Shown: piece by piece, positions 10,362 through 38,038 of the stretch
Layout: every line of letters starts with the position of its first letter
Position numbering within the stretch: position 1 is the stretch's first letter
From: Actinopolyspora biskrensis
GTDB lineage: Bacteria; Actinomycetota; Actinomycetes; Mycobacteriales; Pseudonocardiaceae
Length of the DNA stretch: 64,000 bases
Assembly (NCBI RefSeq): GCF_013408175.1
Contig: NZ_JACBYW010000006.1
Span: 248,001 to 312,000 of the forward strand
Reading direction: 5' to 3'
Position numbers and translations under genes: made by a program
The notes under the pieces: model-generated
What the model saw: the letters and a program-made list of their open reading frames with translations, nothing else
Databases searched by the model: none
Told to the model about the DNA's origin: nothing

Positions 10362-10478
10362 GTGCGTGAGTCGGATGCATCGCAAGGCGGCAGGGCACGT
10401 GGCCTAGGCCGCTACTCGAGAGCGGGCCCAACGCAGCGAGGCGCCGACTCGCGTGACGGCTACCCGACCACCCGGAGC
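10362..10478 (+). repeat. Family 1 interspersed palindromic repeat, copy A
   Basis: It begins GTGCGTGAGTCGGATGCATC and ends GCGCCGACTCGCGTGACGGC plus TACCCGACCACCCG. The outer arms GTGAGTCGG and CCGACTCGC pair with one mismatch, and GGCCGCTACTCGAGAGCGGGCC forms an inner hairpin. It lies between the convergent bioF and methyltransferase genes. Confidence 0.85.
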
Positions 10479-10495
10479 CGACGTTCTCCGTCCCA

Positions 10496-11335
10496 TCAGG
10501 GTTTGCGTCCCACCGCACCCACTATGCAGTTGGAGACTTCGGGCTGCTTCCGCAGCCTCGGGCCGTCGGGCCACCAGTCGCAGCACAGCACCAGGCCCGG
10601 TTCGATCAGCTCCAGCCCGGGGAACATGGCTTCGATCTGTGCTCGGGAGCGGAACAGCCCGCTTCCCATCGGGCTGTTGGTGAAGCTCTTCTCCATCCGC
10701 CGGGCCAGCCCGCTGTAGTAGTCGCCGTCCTCCGGGTCGTAGAAGTGGCTCAGCGCCACCAGGGAACCGGAGGGGAGCGCGTCCACGTACTCCCGCATCA
10801 GGTCGCCGGGGTCGCGGTCGCCGACGTGGTGGTGCAGTGTGCCGATCTGGAAGAGCGCGACCGGCTCGGAGAAGTCGAGGTACCTGTTCACCACCGGATC
10901 CTCGAGGACCTGGCGCGGCTCGAAGATGTCGGTCGGGCTGAAGTGCGTCTGCTCGTTCTCCTCAAGCAGCGCACGACCGTGGGCGAGCACCACGGGGTCG
11001 TTGTCCACGTAGACCACTTTGGCCTCGGGGTTGAGGCGTTGGGCCACCTGGTGGGTGTTCTCGGCGGTGGGGAGCCCGGACCCGCAGTCGAGGAACTGGC
11101 GCACTCCCGTCTGGTTGGCGACGAAGCGGGTCACCCGGATGAGGAACTCGCGGTTGTCCCACGCCAGATCGGCAGCCTCCGGGGTCACTCGCTTGACGTC
11201 CTCGAAGACTGCTCTGTCCACTTCGTAGTTGTCCTTGCCACCGAGGAAGGCATCGTAGACCCTGGCGATACTCGCCTTACCCGTGTCGATGTGGACCGGG
11301 GTGGCGCTCTCTACTAACGGGTTGACTTCGGTCAT
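10496..11335 (-). CDS. SAM-dependent methyltransferase of the actinobacterial DUF574 family
   Basis: A 279-residue protein with start ATG at 11335 (MTEVNPLVESATPVH). The family (PF04672, formerly DUF574) is greatly expanded in actinomycetes. Signature segments are ARVYDAFLGGKDNYEVDR near the N-terminus, the SAM-binding loop FLDCGSGLPTAENTH, VYVDNDPVVLAHGRALL (acidic loop contacting the ribose), and FQIGTLHHHV. The substrate is unknown for nearly all members. It is transcribed divergently from an XRE regulator gene with about 235 bp between them, an arrangement common near DUF397/XRE pairs. Its stop faces bioF across the family 1 repeat. Confidence 0.85.
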   Translation of the reverse strand: MTEVNPLVESATPVHIDTGKASIARVYDAFLGGKDNYEVDRAVFEDVKRVTPEAADLAWDNREFLIRVTRFVANQTGVRQFLDCGSGLPTAENTHQVAQRLNPEAKVVYVDNDPVVLAHGRALLEENEQTHFSPTDIFEPRQVLEDPVVNRYLDFSEPVALFQIGTLHHHVGDRDPGDLMREYVDALPSGSLVALSHFYDPEDGDYYSGLARRMEKSFTNSPMGSGLFRSRAQIEAMFPGLELIEPGLVLCCDWWPDGPRLRKQPEVSNCIVGAVGRKP

Positions 11336-11571
11336 CGAAACCTCACGTGAATGCCGGCGAGTACTCCACAATCGGACACGTGGCGTAAAAGAACCATCGC
11401 GTGCGGTAAATGCAAGCACAGGAAGGTAATCTCGCGAAACCGTACGACAGGACTCGAATCGGATCGGGAACGGCGCCGATGGGCCTTTTCGGACACCTTC
11501 GAGCCGAACCCCCTCCCGACGGCTCGGGCCCACCGCGGACCGGTGCCTACACCGAGGAAACAGGAGCGGCG

Positions 11572-12462
11572 ATGACCACTGTCGATTCCGGCGATCACCA
11601 CGAGCCACCCGAGGAGCACCCGAAGCCGACCGCACGGCGGATCGTGCTCGGGACGCAGCTGCGACGCCTGCGGGAGGCGGCCGAGATCACCAGGGCCGAG
11701 GCCGCCGAGTCCATACGCGGCTCCGAGTCGAAGATAAGTCGCATCGAACTGGCCAAGGTGAGCATCAAGGAGCGCGACATAGTCGACCTGCTGAAGTGCT
11801 ACGGAGTCGACGAGCAGCACCGGGAGCCGTTCCTGGACATGGCCCGCGAGTCCAACCAGCCCGGTTGGTGGAACCGCTACAGCGACCTGATGCCCGACTG
11901 GTTCCAGGACTTCGTGGGGCTGGAGGAGTCCGCCGCGCGGATCCAGACCTTCGAGCTTCAGTTCGTTCCCGGCCTGTTACAGATCGAGGACTACGCCAGG
12001 GCGATAGCCAGCCGGGGCCGACCGGAGCTGGCCGACGAGGACGTCCACCGCAGGGTCGCGCTGCGGATGCAGCGGCAGAAGCTGCTCAACCGTCCCGACG
12101 CCCCTCGGGTCTGGGCCGTGATCGACGAGTCCGTGCTGCACCGCCCCATCGGGGGGATACGGGTGATGCGTGCGCAGCTCGATCACCTGCTCGAGATGAC
12201 CAAGCGCTCCACGATCACTCTGCAGGTCGTGCCCTACCGGCTCAGCGGTTACGCGGCGGAGGGGTCGTTCAGCATGTTGCGGTTCGCCGAGCCGGAACTT
12301 CCGAACCTGGTCTACGTGGAGCACCTGGCCGGGGCGCTGCATCTGGACAAGCCGGACGAGATCGAGAAGTACGGAAGGGTTTTCGACCGCCTGACCGTGG
12401 ACGCGGAGACGCCGGAGGATTCCAGGCAACTGCTGCAGAAGATGCGGGCGAGCATCGACTGA
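11572..12462 (+). CDS. XRE-family regulator with DUF5753 (Scr1/WhiJ-like)
   Basis: A 296-residue protein; the start is the ATG at 11572, preceded by CAGGAGCG. The N-terminal helix-turn-helix spans about residues 23-80 (LGTQLRRLREAAEITRAEAA, then SESKISRIELAK). The C-terminal two thirds are a DUF5753 domain, recognisable from FVPGLLQIEDYARA and the IDESVLHRPIGG segment. Proteins of this WhiJ-like class are usually encoded next to a short DUF397 protein and control development or secondary metabolism in Streptomyces. A DUF397 gene follows 200 bp downstream, after two identical palindromes that could be binding sites. Confidence 0.87.
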   Translation: MTTVDSGDHHEPPEEHPKPTARRIVLGTQLRRLREAAEITRAEAAESIRGSESKISRIELAKVSIKERDIVDLLKCYGVDEQHREPFLDMARESNQPGWWNRYSDLMPDWFQDFVGLEESAARIQTFELQFVPGLLQIEDYARAIASRGRPELADEDVHRRVALRMQRQKLLNRPDAPRVWAVIDESVLHRPIGGIRVMRAQLDHLLEMTKRSTITLQVVPYRLSGYAAEGSFSMLRFAEPELPNLVYVEHLAGALHLDKPDEIEKYGRVFDRLTVDAETPEDSRQLLQKMRASID

Positions 12463-12567
12463 CCACTTCCGACAGCGCGGTTCGTCGTGACGCCGCGGGA
12501 CCACGAAAAGTGAATTCCCGGAGAACGAAGGGGTAACGAACTCCCACGATCGAGTGTCGTTTGCAGC

Positions 12568-12629
12568 TGCACGTGCATATGCATTGCCACCCCGAAAGCT
12601 CCCTTGGCAGGATCACCGTGCACGTGCAC
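12568..12629. promoter_or_regulatory. Two TGCACGTGCA palindromes before the DUF397 gene
   Basis: TGCACGTGCA occurs at 12568-12577 and again at 12619-12628, where it lies inside the longer palindrome GTGCACGTGCAC. The copies are 51 bp apart start to start and lie between the XRE gene and the DUF397 gene. They are plausible operators for the XRE protein; that link is inferred. Confidence 0.45.
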
Positions 12630-12659
12630 ATGCACACAACACACAGGAGGAGTGACCCC

Positions 12660-12899
12660 ATGCACGGAGAGACCCGCACCAGCACCTCGGCCGCCCGGCT
12701 CACCGGAGCGCAGTGGCGCAAGAGCAGGCACAGCGGGGCGGTCGGCAACTGTGTGGAGGTCGCCGCACTGGACGGGAACGAGGTGGCTATGCGCAACTCG
12801 CGCGATCCGCAGGGCCCCGCCCTGGTCTACACCCGTGCCGAGATCGCGGCGTTCGTGGCCGGCGCCAAGGACGGTGAGTTCGATGACTTCATCCGCTGA
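12660..12899 (+). CDS. DUF397 domain protein
   Basis: A 79-residue protein with ATG at 12660 preceded by AGGAGGAG. The conserved DUF397 core is visible: WRKSRHSGAVGNCVEVA (residues 21-37), VAMRNSRDPQGPALVYT and the terminal AAFVAGAKDGEFDD. DUF397 proteins are small partners of XRE/DUF5753 regulators in actinomycetes; some pairs act as antagonists or resemble toxin-antitoxin sets. No enzymatic motif is present. The stop overlaps the next gene by 17 bp, which suggests coupled translation. Confidence 0.88.
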   Translation: MHGETRTSTSAARLTGAQWRKSRHSGAVGNCVEVAALDGNEVAMRNSRDPQGPALVYTRAEIAAFVAGAKDGEFDDFIR

Positions 12900-13224
12900 C
12901 ACCGAAACGGAGTACGAAACCCGCCTGCTGCAACTCATCGCGCGTGGTTTCCAATTCGTCCAGTCCACGGACTCCGAAGGAGAACTGCAGTCCCTGGTCG
13001 GTTTCCGCGGACACGACAACGTCATCGACGTGATCCGGTTGGAATCCGAGGACCACGTGTTCGCCACCAGGATGCCCGGCTCGGAGGAGAACATCTACGC
13101 ACCGAGCACGGTCTGGTGGCGCTCCAGCGGAACCGTTTACGAAGTGATCGACCAACTGCTCGATCTCCCCGACGACCACACTCCCGGATCGTTGCTCGTC
13201 GCCACGAGCGGCACGACCTCGTAA
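12883..13224 (+). CDS. Hypothetical protein cotranscribed with DUF397
   Basis: A 113-residue acidic, soluble protein with ATG at 12883 inside the end of the DUF397 gene. I do not recognise a family. It has no signal peptide, membrane segment or cysteine. Visible features are VGFRGHDNVIDVIRLESEDH and a tryptophan pair in STVWWRSSGTVYEVIDQLL, giving an alpha/beta pattern over about 100 residues. Overlap with DUF397 and the shared promoter region suggest that it belongs to the same regulatory module. GC-rich third positions and the length argue that it is a real gene. Confidence 0.7.
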   Translation: MTSSADTETEYETRLLQLIARGFQFVQSTDSEGELQSLVGFRGHDNVIDVIRLESEDHVFATRMPGSEENIYAPSTVWWRSSGTVYEVIDQLLDLPDDHTPGSLLVATSGTTS

Positions 13225-13395
13225 CGGCTCCGCGGACGAGCGCACTGCCTCCCGATGCACGGCACGGAAGCTTCCGAACCGCGCCCCTTTTCTGGCGGAA
13301 GCATCCGTTCACAGCGGAGCCCGTCCGTACCGCCCCGTTCGCGCGGGTTCCGCTTACCGATGCCCTCCGGGCGTGTCGATGACCGACGTGGTGCT

Positions 13396-13548
13396 TTCGG
13401 CGCAGGCGGCGCCGAAGAATTCACCCGAGCAGCTCGCGCCGCCGCGGGTTCTCCCGTGGTGCTCTCGCGAGGACGGCCCCGACGTCGTGCGGAAACCGCC
13501 ACCCGATGTCGGGGCACCCGCTCACGAGACCGCGGGAGGTTCCGCTCA
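13396..13548 (-). repeat. Family 2 interspersed repeat with adjoining hairpin
   Basis: TTCGGCGC, 5 bp and GCGCCGAA form a perfect hairpin at 13396-13416. The family 2 body follows at 13441-13548: GCCGCGGGTTCTC…GGCCCCGACGTCGTG…CACCCGATGTCGGGGC…GAGGTTCCGC. The orientation is opposite to the 63701 copy. The whole 13225-13725 stretch shows no convincing gene; this repeat is its only recognisable content. Confidence 0.75.
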
Positions 13549-13725
13549 GCACCCCCACGGCAGGGGAAAGGAAAGTCTCGCCGGCGGGAGCCGCCTCGGA
13601 AAAACGTTCCGCTCGCACGCTCGAACGTTCCGGGCGGGCCCACCCGATCACGGAAGGCCTGTCCGGCCCACCCGCTGCCGGGTACCGTGTCCGTCGACGG
13701 ATCTTCCCCGCCAGAGGGTGCACGG

Positions 13726-14412
13726 ATGAACGAAACCGGAGCGCACGGTTCCTCCGCTGAACAGCTCGGATCGACGGGCGGCGAAACCACCGGGTTCACC
13801 GAGGTCACGGACGCGCAGGAGCTGCACGAGCTGATCGGCACACCGCTGCGGCGGACGCTGGACAAGGAAAGGTCCACGCTGCACGAGCTGGACAGACAGT
13901 GGCTGGCCCGCTCGCCGTTCTGCCTGGTCGCCACTTCCGACGAGCACGGCAACTGCGACGTCTCCCCCAAGGGCGATCCGCCCGGGTTCACGCTCGTGCT
14001 GGACGAGAGCACGATCGCGCTTCCGGAGCGGCCCGGCAACCGCCGCGCGGACGGGTTCCACAACGTCCTGCGCAATCCGCACGTCGGGTTGCTCTACATG
14101 ATCCCCGGACGCGGGGACACGCTCCGGATCAACGGACGGGCGCGCATCGCGACCGACGCACCGTTCTTCGAACGCATGGAGGTCGGTGGGCACCGCCCCG
14201 CGCTCGCCCTGGTCGTCGAGACCGAGCAGATCTTCCACCACTGCGCGAAGTCCTTCATGCGGGCCGACCTGTGGAACCCGGAAAGCTGGAACCCCGCAGC
14301 GGTGGACTCGCGACCGCGGATAGCCAAAACCCTGGAATCCCCGGAAAAGAGCCTCGCGGAGCTGGAGCAGTACTACGGGGAGTCCTACGCCGCGAAGCTG
14401 TACGGAGGATAA
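13726..14412 (+). CDS. Pyridoxamine 5'-phosphate oxidase family protein (MSMEG_1061-type)
   Basis: A 228-residue protein; start ATG at 13726. It contains the FMN-binding split-barrel of the pyridoxamine-phosphate-oxidase superfamily: SPFCLVATSDEHGNCDVSPKGD, TIALPERPGNRRADGFHNVLRN, VGLLYMIPGRGDTLRINGRARI and FHHCAKSFMRADLW. These blocks define the MSMEG_1061 subgroup, whose members are flavin- or F420-binding reductases of unsettled substrate rather than true PdxH. It stands alone, about 500 bp after the previous gene across a family 2 repeat. Confidence 0.83.
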   Translation: MNETGAHGSSAEQLGSTGGETTGFTEVTDAQELHELIGTPLRRTLDKERSTLHELDRQWLARSPFCLVATSDEHGNCDVSPKGDPPGFTLVLDESTIALPERPGNRRADGFHNVLRNPHVGLLYMIPGRGDTLRINGRARIATDAPFFERMEVGGHRPALALVVETEQIFHHCAKSFMRADLWNPESWNPAAVDSRPRIAKTLESPEKSLAELEQYYGESYAAKLYGG

Positions 14413-27287: not shown

Positions 27288-27767
27288 TCACGGTGAGCTG
27301 GCGCCGGTCAGGGAGATGCCGGTGGCGGCGGCGATCGCCGCAACGATGCTCCAGGCGACCGTGCCCGCCCCGATCCAGGCGAACGTGGCCCGCGGTGTGA
27401 TGCCGATGCCACCGGCTACGAGCGCGGAGAGCTGAGTGCCCAGCCCGATCGGTCCGAGCACGGCCAGTGCGGGCAGGCCCCAGCGTCGCACCAGCCGCTC
27501 GACCCGCTGCCTGCGCCGGCCGGCATCCGGTCGGCCGCCGGCCTCCGCGCGCGTCCCGCGGCGCGCCACCCACCACGCGCGAACGCGTTCACCGAACCAC
27601 GCCGCGACCGCGACCGTCGCCAGGTTGCCCACCAGTCCGGCGACCACGACAGGTACCGGGTGCACTCCGGCGAGGATGCCCCCGGGGATCACGACGACGG
27701 CCTCCAGCCACGGCGCTGCCCCGCCTACGAGAACGCCGAGCAGGATCGCGATGTTCGTGCCGGTCAT
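27288..27767 (-). CDS. Small multidrug-export-type membrane protein (COG2426-like)
   Basis: A 159-residue protein with ATG at 27767, preceded by GGTGGAG, overlapping the TetR stop as ATGA. There are about four membrane segments: IAILLGVLVGGAAPWLEAVV, PVVVAGLVGNLATVAVAAW, then ALAVLGPIGLGTQLSALVAG and TVAWSIVAAIAAATG, with a basic cytoplasmic loop in between. The EAVVVIPGGILAG and GPIGLGTQLSALVAG motifs fit the 'small multi-drug export protein' group, whose transport role is only annotated by analogy. It is cotranscribed with its TetR regulator. Confidence 0.72.
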   Translation of the reverse strand: MTGTNIAILLGVLVGGAAPWLEAVVVIPGGILAGVHPVPVVVAGLVGNLATVAVAAWFGERVRAWWVARRGTRAEAGGRPDAGRRRQRVERLVRRWGLPALAVLGPIGLGTQLSALVAGGIGITPRATFAWIGAGTVAWSIVAAIAAATGISLTGASSP

Positions 27768-28318
27768 CGCTCCACCTTCGTCTCCGGCGGAGGATCGGCT
27801 TCCTCCGCCGCCAACGTCGTCATTCGCGTGAGCACGGCCGCTCGTTCGGACGGCTCGAGCACGTCCAGGCCGACGAGCTCGGCCAGCCACAAGCCGTCAC
27901 ACGCCAGCCGCAGGAGAGTGCCCAGCGTCGGGTCCGCGTTCGATTCCCTGCTCACTCGTTGAAACTCCGCGAAGGCCCGGCGGAACGGAGCAACTGCCTC
28001 CGGGTACTCGAACGCGGCGGCCATCAGCGCGGTGTCGAGGTGCGTGTCGGGTGCCGCGTCGAGGGAGGCGATGTAACCGGCGACCGGGCCGTGATCCCGG
28101 TTCTGCTCGCGATGGCGCTCCATCGCCGAGCGGATCTCGGCGACCCGGGCCTCGGCCATCGCCTCGACGAGCGCGTGCTTGCTCGGGAAGTGGTACAGCA
28201 GACCACCCTTGCTGACACCTGCGGCGCGCGCGACCGACTCCAGGGTCAGCGCCCGTACACCACCCCGGTGAATGACTTCTCCGGCCACTCGCAGCAACCG
28301 GTCCCGAGTCTCGCCCAT
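27764..28318 (-). CDS. TetR-family transcriptional regulator
   Basis: A 184-residue repressor. The DNA-binding domain spans about residues 4-50: LLRVAGEVIHRGGVRALTLE, then SVARAAGVSKGGLLYHFPSKHALV, the classic TetR helix-turn-helix. The C-terminal ligand domain is all helical with GTLLRLACDGLWLAELVGL, close to the TetR_C group that includes BetI-like and drug-sensing members. It is the first gene of a two-gene operon with the small exporter. A 22-bp near-perfect palindrome sits just upstream and is the probable autoregulatory operator. Confidence 0.9.
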   Translation of the reverse strand: MGETRDRLLRVAGEVIHRGGVRALTLESVARAAGVSKGGLLYHFPSKHALVEAMAEARVAEIRSAMERHREQNRDHGPVAGYIASLDAAPDTHLDTALMAAAFEYPEAVAPFRRAFAEFQRVSRESNADPTLGTLLRLACDGLWLAELVGLDVLEPSERAAVLTRMTTLAAEEADPPPETKVER

Positions 28319-28325
28319 GCCTCTA

Positions 28326-28347
28326 CTGTACCGTCCGGACGGTGCAG
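28326..28347. promoter_or_regulatory. Probable TetR operator
   Basis: ACCGTCCGGACGGT (28330-28343) is a perfect 14-bp palindrome, extended by CTGT and GCAG to 22 bp with one mismatch. It lies 8 bases upstream of the TetR start. This is the usual place for a TetR autorepression site. Confidence 0.7.
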
Positions 28348-29203
28348 TGGAATGGGCTCGCGGGGTCGTTCCAGCAGCCCCTCCGGCCCGAGGCGCTCCC
28401 CGGAACGTCCGAGCAGGTCACCCTGGCGATACCACTGCGGTGCCCACCACCCCGCACGCCACGACGTCCGCGCGGGAGCGAATCCAGCGGAACGACCGGT
28501 GCTCCACCCCCTCAGCCGACGCAGAGGACGCGCTCCCGCTGCCCGGCAGGGCTACCAGTGGTTCGATCGCCAGGAAGCCTCGTGCGTTGAACCGGGGGAA
28601 TCGCCGACCGATCTCCGGTTCACGACAGAAGAGCGTCCTCCCGGCGCGGCACTCTTCGTCGACGGATGCCCCGGGGCCGTTTCACTCCCGGGGACTTCAC
28701 TCCCGGGGACCGGACCTGGCAGCACCGCGAGGATCGATCACCCACCGGCCGGGAGGGCGTCGACACGCCCCGCAACACGGACGGGAAGCTCATGGCGCTC
28801 ATCGCCGTTCTCGCACCGCTGTCGGTCGTCTTCGGCCTCGAGGAGCTGTGGCCTGCCTTCGTCGCCGCCTCGGCGTGATCGGGGCCATCGCGTGGATGGG
28901 GGCGCTGTGGGCCCGGTCCCGGTCACGATGACCGACGTGGCCGCCCGTCGCTCGTGGCCCCGGCGGCCCGGCCCTGCAACGTAACCACACTTCCCCGACG
29001 GGCTCCCCGCGGCTCGGCCACGGAGAGCCCGCGCGTCGACCGGGGACGTTGTCGGCGGATCCGGCGAACTTCTTTCCCCGTCGCCGAGCCCCGGCACCTC
29101 CTCGGCATATCGACGCACGAGGACCATCGGTCGACTCCTCCCCCTCTCACACACCGCCACACCACAGGAATTGGTTCCGACCGAATAATCCACCTCGAAC
29201 TGT
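28348..29203. other. Long gap without a convincing gene
   Basis: I see no full gene here. A short hydrophobic peptide (LMALIAVLAPLSVVFGLEEL, around 28786-28878) continues in another frame as GVIGAIAWMGALWARSRSR, which could be a frameshifted remnant of a tiny membrane protein, but this is weak. Two near-identical TTCACTCCCGGGGAC units occur at about 28680-28710. The stretch separates the TetR operon from the nucleoside-type cluster. Confidence 0.4.
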
Positions 29204-29285
29204 GTCCCACGTCACAAAATTTTTCGTCTTTTCGTGGGACCGATTAGATTTCTTGTTGACCCTCGTTCTTCCGGCTTGGTAAACC
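29204..29285 (+). promoter_or_regulatory. AT-rich leader with inverted repeat and candidate promoter of the nucleoside-type cluster
   Basis: GTCCCACG (29204-29211) and CGTGGGAC (29233-29240) are perfect arms around a 21-bp T-rich spacer. Fifteen bp later TTGACC (29256-29261) and TAAACC (29280-29285), 18 bp apart, resemble a housekeeping-sigma promoter. The first cluster gene starts 145 bp downstream. Operator and promoter roles are inferred. Confidence 0.4.
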
Positions 29286-29429
29286 TATGGTGACCAGAAG
29301 GGACATCCGAAGTCCCCCTACAGCCTGTGAACGCGAGCAAAAGCGAGGGTACGACCGATCCCGCAGTAATATTTACGCACTCCGACGAAACTGCGGAAAC
29401 CCACTTCGTCCGTCTCCTGAAGGTGTCAA

Positions 29430-30158
29430 GTGACGAATATTGGAAACACCGATCCCCTGCAGATCGAACAGCACCGATCACCCTCTATTTCCGGACGCAG
29501 CAAGAAACTGTGGCACGTCGACGAGGAAACCTGTTTCGTACGCCTGGTCGAAAGCCTCACCAGTTATACCCATGAACGGCACGAGCTCGTTTCGGGAACG
29601 GGTCCGCTCCGTCTCGACTTCTATGAGATGGCGGCGAGCAGGCTCCGCGAGGAGGGCATTCCGTGCGCGTTTCTGCGTCGAGTCGATCAGACCGGTTACC
29701 TCGCTAAGTACTACAAAGTCTCTCCCCCGGTCGAAGTCATAGTAAAAAACCGTGCTGTTGGTTCCACACTGCGCAAGTACCCAGGCCTGTTCGCCGAGGA
29801 AGAAGTCCTTCCGCGCCCGGTCGTCAAGTTCGACTACCGGTGCGACCCCGAGGACCAACCCATAGGAGAGGACTACTTGCGCGCTCTCGGGATTCCGGTG
29901 GAAAAAATGTACAAAACCGCCTTGACGGTCAACGAACTGCTTTGCGAATGGCTCGATCCCATACAGTTATGGGACTTCTGCTTGATCTTCGGGATCGACA
30001 GCGAGGGAGATCCGAGCATAATCTCCGAAGTTTCACCGGACTGCATGCGCCTCCGCGCGGAGGACGGCAGCATGCTCGACAAGGACATTTTTCGGAACGG
30101 CGGGGAGCACACCGAGATAACGACGGCGTGGAAGGAACTCATTGAGCACGTCAGCTAA
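29430..30158 (+). CDS. SAICAR-synthetase-like (PurC-family) enzyme
   Basis: A 242-residue protein with GTG at 29430 after GAAGGTG. The ATP-grasp-like PurC fold is recognisable from SGRSKKLWHVDEE (21-33), corresponding to the PurC glycine loop; DFYEMAASRLREEGIPCAFL; and VEVIVKNRAVGSTLRKYPG (101-119), which matches the PurC signature EVVVRNxAAGS. PurC ligates aspartate to CAIR in purine synthesis. This copy is too divergent and wrongly placed for the housekeeping enzyme: it heads a run of nucleoside-related genes. PurC paralogues with an SDR partner act in pentostatin/coformycin synthesis (PenC/PenB), so a specialised carboxamide- or ring-forming step is likely. Confidence 0.78.
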   Translation: MTNIGNTDPLQIEQHRSPSISGRSKKLWHVDEETCFVRLVESLTSYTHERHELVSGTGPLRLDFYEMAASRLREEGIPCAFLRRVDQTGYLAKYYKVSPPVEVIVKNRAVGSTLRKYPGLFAEEEVLPRPVVKFDYRCDPEDQPIGEDYLRALGIPVEKMYKTALTVNELLCEWLDPIQLWDFCLIFGIDSEGDPSIISEVSPDCMRLRAEDGSMLDKDIFRNGGEHTEITTAWKELIEHVS

Positions 30159-30849
30159 ACGGCGGGTGGCTGTCGTAACAGGGACGAACCGCGCCACTGG
30201 GAACGCTATCGCGCACAGTCTGCACGAACAGGACTGGAGCATCGTCTCGGTAAACCGAACTTTGTCCAGCGAAGACTGGATGCAACAGCACAAATGCGAA
30301 TTCACCGACGCCGATGAGGTCGTTTCCACGGCGCGCAGAATTTCCACGGAGAACGATGAGATCCACACATTCATCGCAACCGCGGTCTCGCGCAACTTGG
30401 CGCCTATCGCTGATATCACGGCCGATCAGTACCACGAATCAGTGATGGTCAACCTTACTTCCGTCGTTCTCACCATTCGCGAGCTCCTTCCATCCATCCG
30501 GCGTGCCCGCGGACACATCGTCGTCATCGGGAGCCATGCCGGGTCGCGGTGCTTCGAGGGCGGCACGGCGTACAGCACCACCAAGGCGGCCCTGAAAGCT
30601 CTCGTCGAGACCCTGCTTCTGGAGGAAAGGCAAAACGGTGTCACGACGACCCTCGTCTCCCCCGGAGCGATCGCGAACTTCGATCACGACCACTCCCCGT
30701 ACAAGATGACTACCGAGTCCGTGGCGCACTGCGTGCGCACATTGATCACCAGCACTCCCGAGGATGTCGCCGTCGGGGAGGTCGAGGTTCGTCCGGCGAA
30801 CATTCCTCCTCCGGAAGTATCCGGACTTGATCGATTGAATTTTGTCTGA
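30142..30849 (+). CDS. Short-chain dehydrogenase/reductase of the nucleoside-type cluster
   Basis: A 235-residue SDR. The TTG at 30142 overlaps the PurC-like stop and follows AAGGAA, so translation is coupled. The nucleotide-binding motif is TGTNRATG (13-20). Catalytic residues are Asn104, Ser131 (VVIGSHAG), Tyr144 and Lys148 (AYSTTKAALKAL). This places it among classical NAD(P)-dependent SDRs. By analogy with PenB, which reduces the keto group of the diazepine ring in pentostatin synthesis, it may carry out a late ketoreduction; that role is inferred only from pairing with a PurC paralogue. Confidence 0.85.
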   Translation: MSTSAKRRVAVVTGTNRATGNAIAHSLHEQDWSIVSVNRTLSSEDWMQQHKCEFTDADEVVSTARRISTENDEIHTFIATAVSRNLAPIADITADQYHESVMVNLTSVVLTIRELLPSIRRARGHIVVIGSHAGSRCFEGGTAYSTTKAALKALVETLLLEERQNGVTTTLVSPGAIANFDHDHSPYKMTTESVAHCVRTLITSTPEDVAVGEVEVRPANIPPPEVSGLDRLNFV

Positions 30850-30890
30850 CAGGACCACCGCAAAACCCCACAGCCCGATCAACAGGAGTA

Positions 30891-31301
30891 GTGTTCGGAT
30901 GGTCGGACGCGGTGCTCGGAGCAACGGGGCATCGCTCCTTTACGGCTGATGACGTGGAACACGTCCGCGACGGGGCGGTACTCGCCGGTGGCAGCCCGAA
31001 CAAAGTTGAGTTCGATGTCGAGGGGATACGGTCCAATTGTGCAAGCAAGCGCGAAGACGACATTGTTTCAGAACTCATGCTGGACGGTAACACCGTTTAC
31101 GTCCTGAACGACGGGGAGCCGATAAACTTCTTGGAACAAAGCGCTCTCGGCAACGCGCTCGAGCTGATCCGTTCCGAGCTGTGCATGTGCATGTGGGCTC
31201 TCGCGACACAACGACACCGAAATGGAATCCACCGCTTGGCCCCGGAGCTGCAGCAGTGGTTGGCCGATACGTGGCGATGCGCTCATCGGAACACCCCGTG
31301 A
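30891..31301 (+). CDS. Partial adenosylhomocysteinase-like NAD-domain protein
   Basis: A 136-residue protein starting with GTG at 30891, only two bases after GGAG. ATGHRSFTADDVEHVRDGAV (11-30), KVEFDVEGI and VYVLNDGEPINFLEQ follow the second half of the adenosylhomocysteinase cofactor domain and the stretch after it. The substrate domain and the GxGxxG half are missing, so it is either a truncated relic or a small stand-alone partner. Its stop overlaps the HD-protein GTG (GTGA), and the frame is intact, which argues that it is expressed. Adenosylhomocysteinase uses bound NAD to oxidise the ribose 3' position, which would suit nucleoside chemistry, but this half cannot do that alone. Confidence 0.6.
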   Translation: MFGWSDAVLGATGHRSFTADDVEHVRDGAVLAGGSPNKVEFDVEGIRSNCASKREDDIVSELMLDGNTVYVLNDGEPINFLEQSALGNALELIRSELCMCMWALATQRHRNGIHRLAPELQQWLADTWRCAHRNTP

Positions 31302-31963
31302 ACAACCGACGATACCTGGTAGAGCGCGTGCGTGAGGCTGTGGAGGAGGACTTCGGTCACCTCGACCGAGTCGCTCGGCTGAGCCGGACACTCGACGCGG
31401 AGGGGGGCGCCGATCCCGAAGTCACGGCTGTCGCCGCTTATGTCCACGACCACCACCGTCTTCCGGAACACGAGCGGGGTCGCGGAGCGAGTTCCGCCGA
31501 GTCCCTTCCGGAGGTGCGACGCACCCTGATGAGAGCGGGCGCTGGTCCCCATCTCCGACGTGGTGCCGAAGCGGCGGTTGCCATTACTGACACGTTTACG
31601 TTCGCCGGTGCGTCAGCCGATTCCGTTGACGCAGTGGCAGCGTGCTCGCGCGATGCCGACATGCTCGACGAGATCGGAGCGATCGGAATTGCCCGCGCTT
31701 TTATGTACGGCGGTAGCACGGGTGAGCCGATGCGGGTTGCGACGGAACAGCTTCAAACGGTTTACCCCGGGGGCCGGACCAGTTCCGTCGTCCTACGCTT
31801 CCATGAGAAGCCGCTTCGTCTGCGCGAGGAGACGAGCACGTCCTCGGGCAAGCGCGAAGCCGAGCGTCGGCATCAACCGGTGCTACGGTTCCCTCAATTT
31901 CTGCACGAGGAGCACGGAGATCTGGACACCGCCCCGGCACACCGATTTGAAGACGCATTATGA
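31298..31963 (+). CDS. HD-domain phosphohydrolase
   Basis: About 221 residues from GTG at 31298, which overlaps the previous stop; an ATG at 31277 is an alternative. The HD signature is seen as GHLDRVARLSRTL (first metal His), YVHDHHRL (His-Asp pair), and DADMLDEIGAIGIARAFMYGG, the YedJ-type distal Asp motif. HD proteins hydrolyse phosphate esters, often of nucleotides. In fungal cordycepin synthesis an HD protein (Cns2) dephosphorylates the nucleotide intermediate, so a similar nucleotide-phosphatase step is reasonable here. The stop overlaps the next start as ATGA. Confidence 0.78.
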   Translation: MNNRRYLVERVREAVEEDFGHLDRVARLSRTLDAEGGADPEVTAVAAYVHDHHRLPEHERGRGASSAESLPEVRRTLMRAGAGPHLRRGAEAAVAITDTFTFAGASADSVDAVAACSRDADMLDEIGAIGIARAFMYGGSTGEPMRVATEQLQTVYPGGRTSSVVLRFHEKPLRLREETSTSSGKREAERRHQPVLRFPQFLHEEHGDLDTAPAHRFEDAL

Positions 31964-32340
31964 GATATACGGTACAAGTTGCTCGTTCCTCGGCCACCGT
32001 CGATGTCGACCCATCTGAGCTCTCCCTTTGCGTTCAGGGATCTCCCGTGGCCGGACACGGTATCGAACGATCCTGCGTGTCGGCCGTGTTCGAGCTGGGC
32101 GAGTCTGGGGGGCTACTCGGTGTCGAGTTGTTCGACCTTCCGGAACACTCGGTGCAAACACTGCGCCCGATGTCCTCGAGGAAAACCCTGAAAAATGCGG
32201 ACAGATTCATTTCTCTCGATTACGAGGCCGGACGCCTGCTGGTCCTCCTCGGCAGGGGGTTTTACCGGACTCCGATAACGCGGACCGTAGAGTTGCTGGT
32301 GGACGCCGATCGCCAAATGTGCCGGATCGCGTCACGGTGA
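31960..32340 (+). CDS. Unknown protein of the nucleoside-type cluster
   Basis: A 126-residue protein with ATG at 31960 overlapping the HD-protein stop. I do not recognise it. It has no signal peptide or membrane helix. The pattern is mostly beta strands (MRYTVQVARSSATVDVD, SAVFELGE, LLGVELFDLP, RLLVLLGRGFY), suggesting a small barrel or sandwich. Tight coupling on the left and the exporter 40 bp to the right make it an integral part of the operon. It could be a small-molecule binding or structural partner protein. Confidence 0.65.
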   Translation: MRYTVQVARSSATVDVDPSELSLCVQGSPVAGHGIERSCVSAVFELGESGGLLGVELFDLPEHSVQTLRPMSSRKTLKNADRFISLDYEAGRLLVLLGRGFYRTPITRTVELLVDADRQMCRIASR

Positions 32341-32380
32341 GCTCACGACTGGGCAGGAAACGAACCAAAGGGAAGAAGGC

Positions 32381-33589
32381 GTGAAACTTTACGGTGAGTT
32401 GTTCCGGCAGCAGTACGTCAAAAAACTGCTGCCAAGTAACGTCGTCGGGCGGCTCCCGGAGGGCATGGGGCCGCTCGTCGTCGCTCTGTTCCTGCGCGAG
32501 CAAGGATTCGAGTACAGCCTGGTCGGTGTGCTCGCTGCGTTGTACGGAATCTCCGCCGCCGTGGGCACACCGGTCCTGGGCCGATGCGTCGACCTCTACG
32601 GCCAAGTGCGCGTGCTCGCTGTGTGCATGCTGGCCTCCACGGCCGGGTTCCTGGCCCTCTCGATCACCCCGTCGGACCAGGTTCTGCTCGCCGGTATGAG
32701 CATCGTGGCGGCCGGGCTGTTCACCCCACCGCTCGAACCTTGCCTCAGGAGCCTGTGGCCGCGGGTGCTGACGGGAGAACGCACGATCAAGACCGCCTAC
32801 GCCCTCGACGCCACTCTGCAGGAGCTCGTTTTCGTTTCGGGGCCGCTGCTGGTGGTCATCGCGGTGGAGGCGATGGGGCCGGCCGGTGCCCTGGTCACCA
32901 CGGGGCTGCTCGGTTTGCTGGGGACCATCACGTTCATCACCACCCCACCCGTGCGGCGGTGGCAGGCCGAACATCGCCAGGCGGACTGGGCCGGACCGTT
33001 GCGTTCGGCGACGCTGCGTCAGATCCTGATGAGCCTGGTATTCGCGGGAGCGACGATCGGGCTGCTGAACATCTCGGTCATCGCCTACAGCGAAGCCAAC
33101 CATGCGAATGAACTCTCGGGGATCATCCTCGCGACGAACGCCTTCGGGGCGCTGATCGGCGGGCTCGTCTACGGTAGCCGCAGTTGGCCTGGCAGTTCAT
33201 ACCGGCACTTCCAGTTCCTGATGTTCACGCTCGCCGTCGGATACGTACCGCTCGCGTTCGCCCCGCCGCCGGTAGTGCTGATCCCGTGCGCGGCTCTCAG
33301 CGGGATTTCGCTGGCACCGGCTCTGGCGAGCGCGTTCGCCGTGGTCGGCAGCAGCGTACCTTCAGGAACGAGTACCGAGGCGTTCGCATGGCTGGTCACC
33401 ATTTTCATGGCGGGCAACGCAGCCGGGTCGACCCTCGCCGGAACGTTGCTGCAGCACATCGGGCTGCACGCCGCCTTCTGGGCACCACCGACGAGCGCGC
33501 TGTGCGGATTCCTCGTGTTCACGGGGCTGTCGGCCGCACGACGTGCGAAGCACCGGCGACGGAGCGGTGAGTACGAAGTTGCGCGCTGA
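32381..33589 (+). CDS. MFS transporter of the nucleoside-type cluster
   Basis: A 402-residue membrane protein with GTG at 32381 after GGGAAGAAGG. About twelve hydrophobic segments are present; GVLAALYGISAAVGTPVLGR then CVDLYGQVRVL forms the loop between helices 2 and 3. FTPPLEPCLRSLWPRVL and the helix-rich C-terminal half resemble drug-efflux MFS proteins from actinomycete gene clusters. It would export the product or give self-resistance. The C-terminus overlaps the HAD gene start by 23 bp. Confidence 0.85.
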   Translation: MKLYGELFRQQYVKKLLPSNVVGRLPEGMGPLVVALFLREQGFEYSLVGVLAALYGISAAVGTPVLGRCVDLYGQVRVLAVCMLASTAGFLALSITPSDQVLLAGMSIVAAGLFTPPLEPCLRSLWPRVLTGERTIKTAYALDATLQELVFVSGPLLVVIAVEAMGPAGALVTTGLLGLLGTITFITTPPVRRWQAEHRQADWAGPLRSATLRQILMSLVFAGATIGLLNISVIAYSEANHANELSGIILATNAFGALIGGLVYGSRSWPGSSYRHFQFLMFTLAVGYVPLAFAPPPVVLIPCAALSGISLAPALASAFAVVGSSVPSGTSTEAFAWLVTIFMAGNAAGSTLAGTLLQHIGLHAAFWAPPTSALCGFLVFTGLSAARRAKHRRRSGEYEVAR

Positions 33590-34385
33590 CGAAGTGACAG
33601 TCGTGGCGACCGATCTCGACGGCACTCTGTTGAACTCGCAGGGGACGCTGTCCGCGTACAGTCGCAGCACTCTCGGAGCACTGGACGAGGCCGGGTTCGC
33701 GGTGACCATAATGACCGCCCGTCCGCTCCGGGACGTCGTGACGCTCGACGGTCTCCCGGACCGCGCGCTTCTTGCATGCGGTAATGGCACGCTGATCCAC
33801 GACCGGTTTTCCGGTGTCGATCTGCATCGGAACTACATGCCTGCGCGAGACGTGGAGATGATAATCGACATTCTGCGCCGGATCGCACCAGAAGTACGAC
33901 TCGGCGGAGAACTAAATCCCGAGCTCTTCTTGGAGGACGGGTTCCTGTTGCCGGACTCGGCGGAGCCGCCAACAGAAACAGCGCAGCACCTCGAGACCGT
34001 GCTCGGCGGCCCCGGCCTGGCCAAGCTGATCGTCCAATTGCCCGGGCGCGCGACCGATTACCTCCGAACGCTGTGCTCCCGGCTGCCGACGAAATTCGAA
34101 GTCACCTGCTCCTCCGAATGGTTCTGCGAGATCACGGCGTCGGGTGCGAACAAGGCCGAAGCGCTCGAGCTCGTTTCCCTGACACGGGGGTGTACCGCCC
34201 GCAACGTAATCGCATTCGGCGACATGCCGAACGACATACCGATGCTGAGGTGGGCGGGAACCTCGGTGGCTGTCGCCAACGCACATGCTTCCCTGCTCGC
34301 GGTGGCAGACCACATAACCTCGTCAAATGACGATGACGGTGTCGCGAGTTTCCTCGATGAAAAATTGATCAACCACTCTGCGTGA
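33567..34385 (+). CDS. Cof-type HAD-IIB phosphatase
   Basis: About 272 residues from GTG at 33567, with GGAG just upstream, overlapping the exporter gene end. HAD motif I is VATDLDGTLLN (nucleophile Asp16, acid Asp18), motif II lies in VTIMTARPLRDV, and motif IV is AFGDMPNDIPMLRWAG. The type IIB cap lies between residues about 85 and 190. Cof-type enzymes hydrolyse sugar phosphates and nucleotides such as pyridoxal phosphate or FMN. In this operon a 5'-phosphate removal from a nucleotide intermediate is plausible, in parallel with the HD protein. Confidence 0.87.
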   Translation: MSTKLRADEVTVVATDLDGTLLNSQGTLSAYSRSTLGALDEAGFAVTIMTARPLRDVVTLDGLPDRALLACGNGTLIHDRFSGVDLHRNYMPARDVEMIIDILRRIAPEVRLGGELNPELFLEDGFLLPDSAEPPTETAQHLETVLGGPGLAKLIVQLPGRATDYLRTLCSRLPTKFEVTCSSEWFCEITASGANKAEALELVSLTRGCTARNVIAFGDMPNDIPMLRWAGTSVAVANAHASLLAVADHITSSNDDDGVASFLDEKLINHSA

Positions 34386-34404
34386 CCACATGAAGGTGTT
34401 GGTT

Positions 34405-35154
34405 ATGAACCATCAGAAATTAGCTGAAGCAGGCCCCGCCGGAACTGCCGCACCCGACTACACCGATTGTCCCGAGCGTGGCCTCGCCATATACAGCGAA
34501 GCCTTTCAGAAAGTGTTCGAGTATCTGTACACGAACCAGATCCCGGGAGACGTGGCAGAGTTCGGCACTTATCGGGGCTTCACCGCCGGTGTCATCGCAA
34601 AAATGATGCGTTTTTTCAATGGTCGACCACGTTTTTCCGCGCAGCGTGGGCGGCGTCTGCTGTGCTACGACTCCTTCGAGGCGTTCCCGGAAAGCGACTC
34701 GCCGGTGGACCGGGTGTCCTACGAGGTCAATCATACGCAATCGTGGGCCCCGGGAACCGGAGCAGCGCCAGCCGGAACACAGGACGAGGTGAGAGATTTT
34801 CTGGCCACGATCCTTCCGGAGGAGGGGTTTGCGATCGTACCCGGATTCTACGAACAGACCCTGCTCACATGTCCGCCGGACCACGACGTGGCACTCGTCC
34901 ACCTGGACTGTGACCTCTACGCTTCCACGAAGCTCGTGCTGGACCACCTCGTTTCACGGGGCGCTCTCCAGGACGGATCAGTGATCATGTGTGACGACTA
35001 CAACTGCAATCGAGCACGGGACGACTTCGGAGAGCGTCGCGCGATGCAGGAGACGTTCGCATGTTCGGAGTCGCTTTACAGCTGCACTGAATTTTTCTCG
35101 TACGGCTGGCACGGACGTGCCTTCTTCGTCCACGAAAAGAGTCAGACAGGATAG
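34405..35154 (+). CDS. TylF/MycF-family methyltransferase-like protein
   Basis: About 249 residues from ATG at 34405, chosen because AAGGTG precedes it at good spacing; an ATG at 34390 would add five residues. VAEFGTYRGFTAGVIAKMM is the SAM-binding loop, LLCYDSFEAFPES the acidic loop, and HLDCDLYASTKLVLDHL plus MCDDYNCNRARDDFGERRA hold the metal ligands of macrocin-O-methyltransferase (TylF/MycF) proteins. These are Mg-dependent sugar O-methyltransferases. In a nucleoside pathway it could methylate a ribose hydroxyl; that substrate is a guess. Confidence 0.82.
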   Translation: MNHQKLAEAGPAGTAAPDYTDCPERGLAIYSEAFQKVFEYLYTNQIPGDVAEFGTYRGFTAGVIAKMMRFFNGRPRFSAQRGRRLLCYDSFEAFPESDSPVDRVSYEVNHTQSWAPGTGAAPAGTQDEVRDFLATILPEEGFAIVPGFYEQTLLTCPPDHDVALVHLDCDLYASTKLVLDHLVSRGALQDGSVIMCDDYNCNRARDDFGERRAMQETFACSESLYSCTEFFSYGWHGRAFFVHEKSQTG

Positions 35155-35370
35155 CGGGAAACTGTCCCGACGAACGATCCGAGCCTATCACTCGAAGGAA
35201 CCGAGCAGTTGAGATCGGCTCGTCCGCTTTCCGGTTCGCCCCGGCCGCAGGACCAAACCGCCTGCACCTGTCATGGCCCGTGCTCCCCGAGAACGCCGTC
35301 ACGACCGATCGTCACGACCGTGTCCCGTGTTTCCACCGGAATTTTTCGACGTACGAAAGAGAGGGCAACC

Positions 35371-36093
35371 ATGCCGATGCCGATCAGCGGCCTCCCCGAG
35401 TCCGACACCCCGGAGGCGGCCGTGGTAGTGGGGTCCCCCGAACGGGCTCGGAACATATCCGCGCTCCTTGAGGACTCTCATCTAGTCGCTCAAAACCGTG
35501 AATTTGTTTCTTTCACCGGTGCGTGGCGGGGCACCCGGGTCCTCGTCTCCTCCCACGGCGTGGGAGGCCCCGGCGCTGTCTGCCTGTTCAGGGAAATCGC
35601 ACAGGCCGGGGTAGGCAAGGTCATACGACTCGGTACTGCCGGCTCCCTGACTGAAGACCTCTCCCGTGGCGATTTGTTCATCCCCGAATGCGCGATTCGG
35701 GACGACGGGGTGAGCGACCAGCTCGTTCCTATGTCTTTTCCGGCGACGGCCGCTCCCGAGACGGTGTTTTCTTTGCAGCGCGCCGCTGAGAGTCATTCGG
35801 AGCCTGCTGACCGTGGAATCGTCTGGACACGCGCCGCTTTCGCTCCCGAAGTGCTCTCACTGCCCGTTGAAGAATATCGTGGCGCCGGGGCGAAGGCACT
35901 TGAGATGGAAGTCGCGACGCTCTTGGTGTTCGCCGCGATCCGCCGGATGCGGGCCGGGGCACTGCTCGTCATCGACAACGACGCACGCGTGGACGACCCT
36001 GACGTATTCTCCTATCAACCGAACACGAGGGAGGTGACGGACGGCCTTGCGAAGGCGTCGAGGATCGCGCTGGATGCACTCGTTCACCAATGA
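35371..36093 (+). CDS. Nucleoside phosphorylase (PNP/uridine-phosphorylase family)
   Basis: A 240-residue enzyme with ATG at 35371 following AAGAGAGGG. Family blocks: AVVVGSPERARNISALL (phosphate loop region), LVSSHGVGGPGAVCLFREI, VIRLGTAGSLTEDLSRGDLF, and KALEMEVATLLVFAAIRRM with the conserved ribose-binding EMEVA. The last stretch ALLVIDNDARV fits the base-binding region. These hexameric enzymes reversibly split nucleosides with phosphate. It ends the candidate cluster after a 216-bp gap and may exchange a base, recycle a by-product or remove toxic nucleosides. It may also be an independent salvage gene. Confidence 0.85.
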   Translation: MPMPISGLPESDTPEAAVVVGSPERARNISALLEDSHLVAQNREFVSFTGAWRGTRVLVSSHGVGGPGAVCLFREIAQAGVGKVIRLGTAGSLTEDLSRGDLFIPECAIRDDGVSDQLVPMSFPATAAPETVFSLQRAAESHSEPADRGIVWTRAAFAPEVLSLPVEEYRGAGAKALEMEVATLLVFAAIRRMRAGALLVIDNDARVDDPDVFSYQPNTREVTDGLAKASRIALDALVHQ

Positions 36094-36311
36094 CGAGAGA
36101 GGGGAACCAAGCCCTTTCCGAACTCGGGGTTCCTCACGGAATGACCTGCTCGGAGGGTCGACGGCCGCAACAAGCCGTCCGGGGTGAAGCGACGGATACA
36201 AGTCCGGTGTGCCGGAGAGCTTCTGCTCACCTTCCGTTGATCTCGGGTGAGCTGTGTCCGTCGCACGGCTCGGCCGCGATCAGGGGGATCGCTTCCGCAC
36301 GTGTCCACCGG

Positions 36312-36339
36312 CCCCGGAGGGCGTCGCTTCCCTCCGGGG
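36312..36339. terminator. Strong hairpin after the nucleoside-type cluster
   Basis: CCCCGGAGGG, an 8-base loop and CCCTCCGGGG form a perfect 10-bp stem, in the 370-bp gap between the phosphorylase gene and the arr gene. It is a likely terminator for the cluster. Nothing else in 36094-36463 looks like a gene. Confidence 0.55.
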
Positions 36340-36463
36340 AAGAGGCATGATACAGTTCGGTCCAACGTTGCGGCGGGACGTGCTACCACGGTAATCGTGA
36401 TGCCGACCACGTTCCGCAACCGAATAACGTCTGCGCTCGGCACACTCATGCAACAATGACGCG

Positions 36464-36876
36464 GTGACAACGACGCAGCCCGTCGATGACGGACCCTTCT
36501 ACCACGGCACGAAGGCGGATCTCCGAGCCGGAGATCACCTCGCTGCCGGGTTCCGGTCGAACTACCACCCCGACGTCGTGATGAACCACATCTACTTCAC
36601 CGCGCTGCCGGACAGCGCGGGGCTCGCCGCCGAACTCGCGCCGGGCGACCGGGAACCGCGCGTGTACCTCGTCGAACCCACCGGGCCGTTCGAGGACGAT
36701 CCGAATCTCACCGACAAGAGGTTCCCCGGCAACCCCACCCGGTCATACCGCAGCAGCGGTCCGCTCAAGATCGTGCGTGAGGTGACCGACTGGACGCGCC
36801 TGACCCCGGAAGAGCTGCAGGATTGGCGGGAGCGCCTCGCCGCGCTCCTCGAGAGCGGCGAGGCCGTGATCATCAA

Positions 36877-36880
<4 letters not shown>
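36464..36880 (+). CDS. arr: Rifamycin ADP-ribosyltransferase
   Basis: A 138-residue enzyme starting with GTG at 36464. It inactivates rifamycins by transferring ADP-ribose from NAD to the ansa-chain C23 hydroxyl. Nearly the whole Arr core is conserved: GPFYHGTKADLRAGDHL (10-26), MNHIYFTAL, VYLVEPTGPFEDDPN and the Lys-rich LTDKRFPGNPTRSYRS. These match the compact Arr family found in mycobacteria and integrons. Length is normal. Its last bases overlap the convergent ychF gene by 4 bp. It protects against rifamycins made by neighbours; no rifamycin genes are in the window. Confidence 0.95.
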
Positions 36881-37956
<1,076 letters not shown>

Positions 37957-38038
37957 AGCTGTCCAAGTCTAGGAGCCCCTCCACGATCTCGGTCAGACGG
38001 TCGGGCAATCGCGTGCCGCCTGCGAGCCGGGCGACCGC

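Follow-up and report, generated by a model that had tools for sequence, protein, structure and literature searches.

A probable coformycin-type nucleoside gene cluster beside a presumed remnant of an arabinosyladenine module in Actinopolyspora biskrensis

Results

Gene content and layout of the cluster

The window analysed here, a stretch of 64,000 nucleotides from Actinopolyspora biskrensis, carries nine open reading frames (ORFs) at positions 29430-36093, all on the + strand. Their ORF maps and Pfam and NCBIfam profiles confirm the families that a preliminary description had assigned to them. The genes, and a hairpin beyond them, are as follows.

29430..30158, + strand: PurC-like protein, putative 8-keto-diazepine synthase of the CofB/PenC/AdeA type (SAICAR_synt, 2.9e-25; family of 43 loci)
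30142..30849, + strand: SDR reductase of the CofA/PenB type (adh_short, 6.5e-28; GSHAG...YSTTK kept)
30891..31301, + strand: C-terminal third of an AHCY-like protein (NCBIfam; residues 251-379 of a 388-aa relative at locus L008)
31298..31963, + strand: HD phosphohydrolase, PenF-like (HD domain and PenF residue positions; alternative in-frame start 31271)
31960..32340, + strand: small protein, almost entirely beta, whose family has no Pfam model and is seen with the PurC-SDR cluster type
32381..33589, + strand: predicted MFS exporter (MFS_1, 1.2e-21)
33543..34385, + strand: HAD (Cof-like) phosphatase, likely for 5'-dephosphorylation (Hydrolase_3, 5.3e-46; the start may be 33567)
34390..35154, + strand: TylF-like sugar O-methyltransferase (TylF, 5.2e-17; DLYxST and DDY motifs kept)
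35374..36093, + strand: NP-I nucleoside phosphorylase (PNP_UDP_1, 2e-34; longer in-frame start possible at 35209)
36312-36339, no strand: hairpin with 10-bp perfect arms and an 8-nt loop

Most of the starts and stops had been described as overlapping. With the start codons that we picked, on which the count depends, overlaps occur at four of the eight junctions (PurC/SDR, AHCY/HD, HD/small beta protein, and MFS/HAD), while the remaining four are gaps of 41, 40, 4, and 219 bp. The 219-bp gap precedes the phosphorylase and makes its membership of the operon uncertain. The block is AT-richer than its flanks, as had been noted, with a GC content of 0.6155 against 0.6971 in the rest of the window. 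Moreover, no other part of the window is as rich in AT: among 6,664-bp stretches sampled at 200-bp steps, the five with the lowest GC started at 28801-29601. Two bounds had been proposed. On the left, no convincing gene was found in the gap at 28318-29430. The hairpin on the right exists, but it lies 219 bp beyond the last gene and lacks a T run, so that a bounding role does not follow from it. Terminator-like sites numbered 6 against 5.9 in shuffled sequences, and the promoter and terminator scan as a whole stayed at the shuffle level. An RNA element was rejected, with no Rfam match in 27500-38000.

A PurC-like and SDR core shared by 43 loci

The genome contains two SAICAR_synt genes. The ordinary purC is located elsewhere, and the gene in the window scores far under the NCBIfam purC equivalog cut-off; a housekeeping role as the only purC of the genome, which would have spoken against a cluster, is thereby rejected. 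The motif TKFEFG of the genome's own true PurC is replaced by DFC in the PurC-like family at all 43 loci, and the window protein retains the motifs conserved in the PurC family. The PurC-like family is rare. It was collected by scanning genome contigs with two short peptide patterns, by which relatives will have been missed, and the gene maps of the loci were built with our own profile cut-offs. The fetched flanks were 10 kb, shorter at contig ends (L018, L028, L029, and L046), and absences hold within these flanks.

All 43 loci carry the same SDR; in 40 it follows PurC directly, and in L009, L021, and L032 it lies farther off. This pairing supports the original proposal of a purine-type nucleoside cluster. 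It also shows that the neighbours do not vary freely as far as the core is concerned; outside it, gene content differs between loci. The pair presumably corresponds to CofB/CofA (PenC/PenB), the builders of the diazepine of coformycin and pentostatin, and its typing relies on the loci of named species (L027, L041, and L020) as stand-ins for the characterised sequences.

The nearest PurC-like protein, at 65% identity, is that of L008 from Saccharomonospora iraqiensis subsp. paurometabolica, a locus that to our knowledge is uncharacterised. In the PurC tree the window is sister to L008 (support 99/94), where L008 and some others form long branches. The gene order PurC-SDR-AHCY-HD-unknown-MFS-HAD is common to both; a search for the same order in other actinomycetes had been suggested in the first description. 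Unlike the window, L008 carries a full-length AHCY-like enzyme (388 aa), and neither TylF nor the phosphorylase was found there.

Absence of HisG and the type of pathway

A search for a hisG-like paralogue elsewhere in the genome, suggested by the preliminary description, returned a single HisG of full length (364 aa), which is not at the PurC-like locus, and none in the cluster. Genes of the HisA/HisF family are also present in the genome. Within the fetched flanks, HisG was not found at 32 of the 43 PurC-like loci, L027 and L041 among them.

A coformycin cluster, cof, is known from S. kaniharaensis. The PurC-like gene and SDR are common to the window, to cof, and to the mac cluster (L027). 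L027 is the locus of M. haikouensis DSM 45626; aristeromycin and coformycin are the reported products of the mac cluster of this strain (PMC12648386). Similar to the window, L027 has the small beta protein and HAD beside PurC-SDR and no HisG within its 10-kb flanks, which cover mac only in part since the cluster is given as 25.3 kb. In contrast to cof and mac, the window adds the pen-type AHCY/HD block, TylF, and the phosphorylase; L027 instead carries three AHCY genes and two genes of the MTA-phosphorylase type. L041 is linked by species name to S. resistomycificus, reported to make formycin and coformycin (PMC8724604). Additionally, HisG homologues are named for the ade, pentostatin, and pyrazomycin clusters and not for the coformycin cluster (PMC13055916). 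Collectively, the absence of HisG from loci of reported coformycin-making species indicates that its absence in the window points to coformycin rather than pentostatin, and the earlier view that the gene set matches no known pathway for lack of PenA does not hold. The presence of such genes has not always been matched by a product: no compound is known for the cof genes found in the pyrazofurin cluster (PMC8724604), and none could be detected from one ade-bearing strain of N. spiralis (PMC13055916). The pyrazofurin, formycin, and angustmycin clusters entered the comparison through their published descriptions.

A pentostatin (2'-deoxy) cluster with its PenA elsewhere in the genome is very improbable. 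The window and six other of the 32 HisG-less loci do share a branch of the PurC tree (93/99) with nine of the 11 HisG-bearing ones, as such a cluster might, yet the one HisG in the genome strongly disfavours a remote PenA, and we rejected it. The clusters for adechlorin and 2'-amino-2'-deoxyadenosine (ade/ada; L015 and L020 assigned by species, L024 by gene content) have PurC and SDR as in the window, and the small beta protein was found in L020 and L024 and not in L015. They carry HisG, aminotransferase, Gfo/Idh, and Nudix genes, which are absent from the nine ORFs of the window.

A probable, truncated arabinosyladenine module

The pen cluster of S. antibioticus encodes pentostatin and arabinosyladenine (Ara-A) (PMC12648386, PMC11592144). 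PurC, SDR, AHCY-like, PenF-like HD, and MFS genes are common to pen and the window. The order AHCY-HD-unknown-MFS is the same in L008, L038, and the pen-like L048, and the MFS protein is 61% identical to that of L008. The AHCY-HD-MFS block is probably the Ara-A (pen) module. However, the window differs from pen in several respects: PenA/HisG is missing, HD and the small beta protein occupy two genes, and HAD, TylF, and the phosphorylase are extra. Instead of two full-length AHCY-like enzymes (PenD and PenG) there is one truncated AHCY, and no match to the PenH-J oxidoreductases was found among the nine ORFs (Pfam).

The AHCY-like fragment has no Pfam match, and its best match covers positions 264-353 of 418 in the NCBIfam model. 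It lacks the first 250 of 388 residues, and with them the substrate domain and the NAD glycine motif. A frameshift in place of a truncation was rejected, because a tblastn search of the window with the L008 enzyme matched residues 251-379 only (others E>0.5), with no N-terminal remnant in the window. The reading frame stays open across 129 aligned codons, at 53% identity to L008, and lies behind AGGAG; the fragment may thus be translated and used.

The HD protein falls under the cut-offs of both Pfam (E 0.0014; 19.3 bits against 22) and NCBIfam (PRK10119, 1.7e-13), and it matches structures of the YpgQ/YedJ type, with which PenF has been compared (PMC11592144). PenF residue numbers from that paper were transferred to L048 on the basis of residue spacing, and each of the eight named positions agrees with the L048 protein. 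On this basis, the window protein keeps H..HD..D and the residues aligned to PenF Arg140 and Lys178 and has Tyr at the Phe144 position. Unlike L008, L038, and L048, it has Arg at the His174 position and misses nine residues just before the first metal-binding His.

Since only the C-terminal third of the AHCY-like enzyme remains, Ara-A production has probably ceased, and together with the HD changes the truncation suggests a branch that is probably dead or remodelled. A working two-product cluster for coformycin and Ara-A, in which the AHCY fragment with another protein, or the housekeeping AHCY, performs the 2'-epimerisation, is quite unlikely: the open frame of the fragment and the retained HD residues would suit it, whereas the missing substrate domain and NAD motif, the nine-residue loss, and the Arg substitution argue against it.

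A small beta protein associated with the cluster type

The small beta protein had no Pfam match at E<=0.5 and no NCBIfam match at E<=0.1, and Foldseek against the PDB gave no match under E 0.03, with TM <=0.28 among the best 50 of 1628. It is fused with HD into one ORF in L048, L038, and L026, and this link to a PenF-like HD offers a direct clue to what it does. It is also present in L041, L020, and L027, whose species are reported for coformycin, adechlorin, and aristeromycin, respectively. It is a conserved, cluster-associated protein that had been overlooked.

Additional enzymes and the history of the site

HAD is present at 38 of the 43 PurC-like loci. In contrast, TylF occurs at two of the 43, which bears out its earlier description as an oddity. 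The TylF match scores 62.4 bits against a cut-off of 23, and its DLYxST and DDY motifs align with NovP and with a structurally characterised O-methyltransferase; we take the Asp motifs to be metal binding. As a marker of the cluster type TylF was rejected, six further homologues (45-47% identity) lying in 19-20 kb stretches without a PurC match. The phosphorylase was likewise rejected as cluster-specific, since the four relatives examined adjoin nucleoside ABC-transporter and methionine-salvage genes. Both enzymes appear to be additions to the cluster; their likeliest substrates would be a sugar hydroxyl for TylF and an adenine nucleoside for the phosphorylase. We know of no place for either in the coformycin pathway.

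The sister species G006 has a relic at the same site consisting of the exporter (91% identical to the window protein) and a truncated phosphatase only, and the PurC-like gene occurs in none of the nine other genomes of the genus. Taken with the AHCY truncation, this would fit a whole cluster that is dying in the same way and gives no product. Such decay is unlikely, as PurC, SDR, MFS, HAD, TylF, and phosphorylase are all full-length by family comparison and the PurC-family motifs are intact.

Discussion

Based on these observations, the locus is probably a pen/cof-family cluster for a 1,3-diazepine nucleoside of the coformycin type, beside a remnant of the Ara-A module. The reactions proposed here follow from the gene families and from coformycin enzymology as reportedly worked out by Ren et al. 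in 2020. The imidazole ribotide would come from housekeeping histidine enzymes (the single HisG and HisA). The PurC-like enzyme would close the seven-membered ring, without ATP chemistry, to give 8-ketocoformycin 5'-phosphate; the SDR would reduce the 8-ketone, HAD would remove the phosphate, and the MFS protein would export the adenosine deaminase inhibitor. The HD nucleotidase and small beta protein would represent a split PenF, left from the Ara-A (pen) module alongside the AHCY-like C-terminal third.

Most likely, then, the cluster belongs to a known family and combines a broken partner branch, two unusual extra enzymes, and an overlooked conserved protein. More tentatively, a coformycin/Ara-A pair might have been remodelled into a protector-only cluster. 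The Ara-A epimerase would have been lost, TylF could methylate the diazepine nucleoside at one of its ribose hydroxyls to give an undescribed O-methyl coformycin, and the beta protein split from PenF could be a new partner that gives the HAD and HD nucleotidases their choice of substrate.

Adenosine deaminase inhibitors of the coformycin type serve as drugs, and protector and protege pairs have been reported for the clusters that make them. Here the partner branch is visibly broken and tailoring genes have been added, which makes the order of loss and gain testable. Moreover, PurC-SDR loci also occur outside actinomycetes, five Flavobacteriaceae among them, and widen the range of organisms in which such inhibitors may be made.

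The PurC-like protein and its relatives

The window shows the nine ORFs of the preliminary description, with the families assigned there, and likewise the reduced GC content and the flanking hairpin. The GC fraction is 0.6155 in the block and 0.6971 in the remainder of the window, and four of the eight gene junctions overlap; because a 219-bp gap precedes the phosphorylase gene, the last of the nine, it is the least certain operon member. The genome holds two SAICAR_synt genes, of which that on contig 3 (259 bits; window copy, 90 bits) is the ordinary purC. Thus, the objection that the window gene could be the only purC of the genome does not hold.

PurC-like homologues (E<=1e-10) were found in 3 of 150 relatives, namely, the own genome, G019 and G022, and in none of the nine other genomes of the genus; at E<=1e-40, 394 genomes sampled from the class gave a single match, the own genome. 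A two-peptide-pattern scan of a species-genome collection yielded 41 PurC-like loci, which with L007 (from G022) and the window form the 43-locus set underlying all counts; G019 and L013, judging by length and position, are one record and were entered once. In the alignment, all 43 proteins carry DFC at the position of TKFEFG in the own true PurC, and 34 (strict pattern) carry SE[IV]SPD where the latter reads ADEV. In a maximum likelihood tree of the 43 proteins, the window protein is sister to that of L008 (support 99/94), and both lie inside a 16-member branch (93/99) with 9 of the 11 HisG-bearing loci; long-branch warnings apply to L008, L038, L042, and L046.

Coformycin is reportedly derived from an intermediate shared with the histidine pathway (Ren et al. 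2020, PNAS). In the same work, CofB, a SAICAR synthetase homologue, is said to form 8-ketocoformycin 5'-phosphate without a phosphorylated or adenylated intermediate, after which reduction by the dehydrogenase CofA and then dephosphorylation reportedly follow. The two family motifs fit this CofB chemistry, and the PurC-like protein is placed in the CofB type on the basis of gene pairing and named species.

Gene content and comparison with described clusters

Based on profile searches, PurC and SDR genes occur in all 43 loci, and in 40 of them, the SDR begins no more than 200 bp downstream of PurC. It lies upstream in L032 and approximately 8 kb away in L009 and L021, and these three loci carry the same SDR as the others (E below 1e-97, GSHA motif). 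HAD was found in 38 loci (missing from L009, L018, L022, L042, and L048), the small protein in 28, MFS in 20, AHCY in 11 (counting the window's fragment), HisG in 11 (weaker matches, approximately 5 kb away, in L043 and L047), and HD in 6.

HisG was not found within the flanks of the other 32 loci. These include L027 (M. haikouensis DSM 45626) and L041 (S. resistomycificus). Aristeromycin and coformycin are reported for the 25.3-kb mac cluster of this M. haikouensis strain (PMC12648386), and the flanks of L027 may miss part of a cluster of this size. For S. resistomycificus, joint production of formycin and coformycin is reported at species level (PMC8724604). PMC13055916 describes an Ade cluster family with the PurC-like AdeA as a core gene, includes strains of Microbispora triticiradicis and Nonomuraea spiralis (the species of L020 and L015), and names HisG homologues for the ade, pentostatin, and pyrazomycin clusters. 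In that work, however, the N. spiralis strain yielded no product, and according to PMC8724604, the coformycin genes within the pyrazofurin cluster are without known product; possession of cluster genes thus does not prove production. A search of the own genome for a hisG-like paralogue revealed none: the genome has a single HisG (364 aa) and several HisA/HisF-family genes.

PurC-SDR loci also occur outside actinomycetes (L025, L031, L039, L042, L044, L045, and L046; about 8000-14000), with HAD in five Flavobacteriaceae and Fodinibius and without it in Roseospira. Two upstream ORFs are common to the loci of Flavobacteriaceae and Fodinibius (L039: 8010-8417 and 8526-9989; no Pfam match at E<=0.01). 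Kitasatospora griseola and S. cinnamoneus (L010 and L011; ~8.5-18 kb) share PurC-SDR-AHCY-unknown-MFS-HAD, an MTA-phosphorylase-type gene, and a conserved upstream ORF (L010 8479-9282; no Pfam match at E<=0.01).

Putative Ara-A module

The gene order sought in other actinomycetes was recovered in part. AHCY-HD-unknown-MFS recurs in L008 (Saccharomonospora iraqiensis subsp. paurometabolica), L038 (Nonomuraea jabiensis), and L048 (Streptomyces sp. L-9-10), and the order did not extend to TylF (2 of 43 loci) or the window's phosphorylase type (1 of 43). L048 resembles the described pen cluster in having a second AHCY and HisG. Within pen, PenF and two AHCY-like proteins, PenD and PenG, are attributed to arabinosyladenine formation (PMC12648386). 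As stated in PMC11592144, PenF dephosphorylates Ara-AMP, its deletion abolishes Ara-A, and one relative named there comes from N. jabiensis.

The window AHCY corresponds to residues 251-379 of the 388-residue L008 protein (53% identity) and lacks the substrate domain and the NAD glycine motif; no N-terminal remnant was found elsewhere in the window. The PenF residues named in PMC11592144 were placed by spacing, and all eight fit L048. The window HD retains six (H27, H56, D57, D128, R140, and K178), with Arg at the His174 position and Tyr at the Phe144 position, the latter likewise in L008 and L038, and has lost nine residues immediately ahead of the first His. Given the truncated AHCY and altered HD sequences, we read the Ara-A branch in the window as dead or remodelled. 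Two Streptomycetaceae HD proteins (L026 6468-7646 and L028 80-505, both minus strand) have lost the metal motif, with Tyr-His for His-Asp, perhaps indicating non-catalytic use; that of L026 still carries the fused small domain.

Small beta protein

The small protein is encoded by 28 of the 36 actinomycete loci and by none of the remaining 7. It forms one ORF with HD in L048, L038, and L026 and has a gene of its own next to HD in the window and L008; the measured PenF mass of 42-45 kDa would fit such a fusion. Among 397 genomes of the order, strong matches came only from the own genome and from G022, which both carry PurC-like genes, and three further matches were weak (E 7.5e-5 to 2.9e-4). No match was obtained in Pfam (E<=0.5) or NCBIfam (E<=0.1), and six relatives searched against Pfam (E<=1) gave five blanks and one chance-level hit (0.049). 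The structure model (pLDDT 85, pTM 0.80) is predicted to be all beta except one short helix, and Foldseek against PDB returned nothing convincing (best E 0.03). The small protein and the TylF variant are apparently undescribed, judging by searches of Pfam, NCBIfam, and PDB (Foldseek) and by open-access literature queries not directed at the small protein itself.

TylF and phosphorylase

The window TylF is 49% identical to that of L007, where one run (4965-14321) reads aminotransferase III-Gfo/Idh-Nudix-TylF-unknown-PurC-SDR-HAD and, by gene content, resembles an amino-deoxyadenosine plus coformycin cluster. Beside this run, on the opposite strand, lie an adenosine deaminase gene (Pfam 2.5e-78) and, by eye, a shorter deaminase-like ORF. 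TylF matches occur in 8 of 397 genomes of the order, these two included. The clusters around the six other homologues (45-47% identity) contain, by reading, radical-SAM-like and aminotransferase genes and, in L060, a DHQ-synthase-family gene (Pfam); these neighbours suggest sugar or cyclitol O-methylation.

Phosphorylase relatives were found at 50-56% identity in 14 of 199 other family genomes searched and more weakly (36-38%) in 3. All four examined adjoin nucleoside ABC-transporter and methionine-salvage genes, which were assigned by Pfam for L084 and by homology for the remaining three loci.

History of the cluster site

In G006, a species of the same genus, a relic (L072 4819-7520) adjoins the same ychF gene in the same orientation as in the window. 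Its exporter is retained (91% protein identity), and its phosphatase matches over the first 218 residues only and adjoins a transposase gene (Pfam DDE). Since the relic occupies the same site and its DNA identity (87%) equals that of ychF (87%), the cluster was probably there before these species split.

In the sister species genome G005, approximately 4 kb of other genes (L070 12376-16435) take the place of window 27813-36159 between flanks of 90-97% identity, suggesting that this may be a variable hotspot. By reading, the replacement ORFs are methyltransferase-like, SnoaL-like, and SDR. Nearly all of a TetR-family gene left of the cluster (27764-28318, minus strand), a possible regulator, falls within the segment missing from G005. 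A rifampin ADP-ribosyltransferase (Arr) gene (36464-36880) adjoins the right edge of the cluster.
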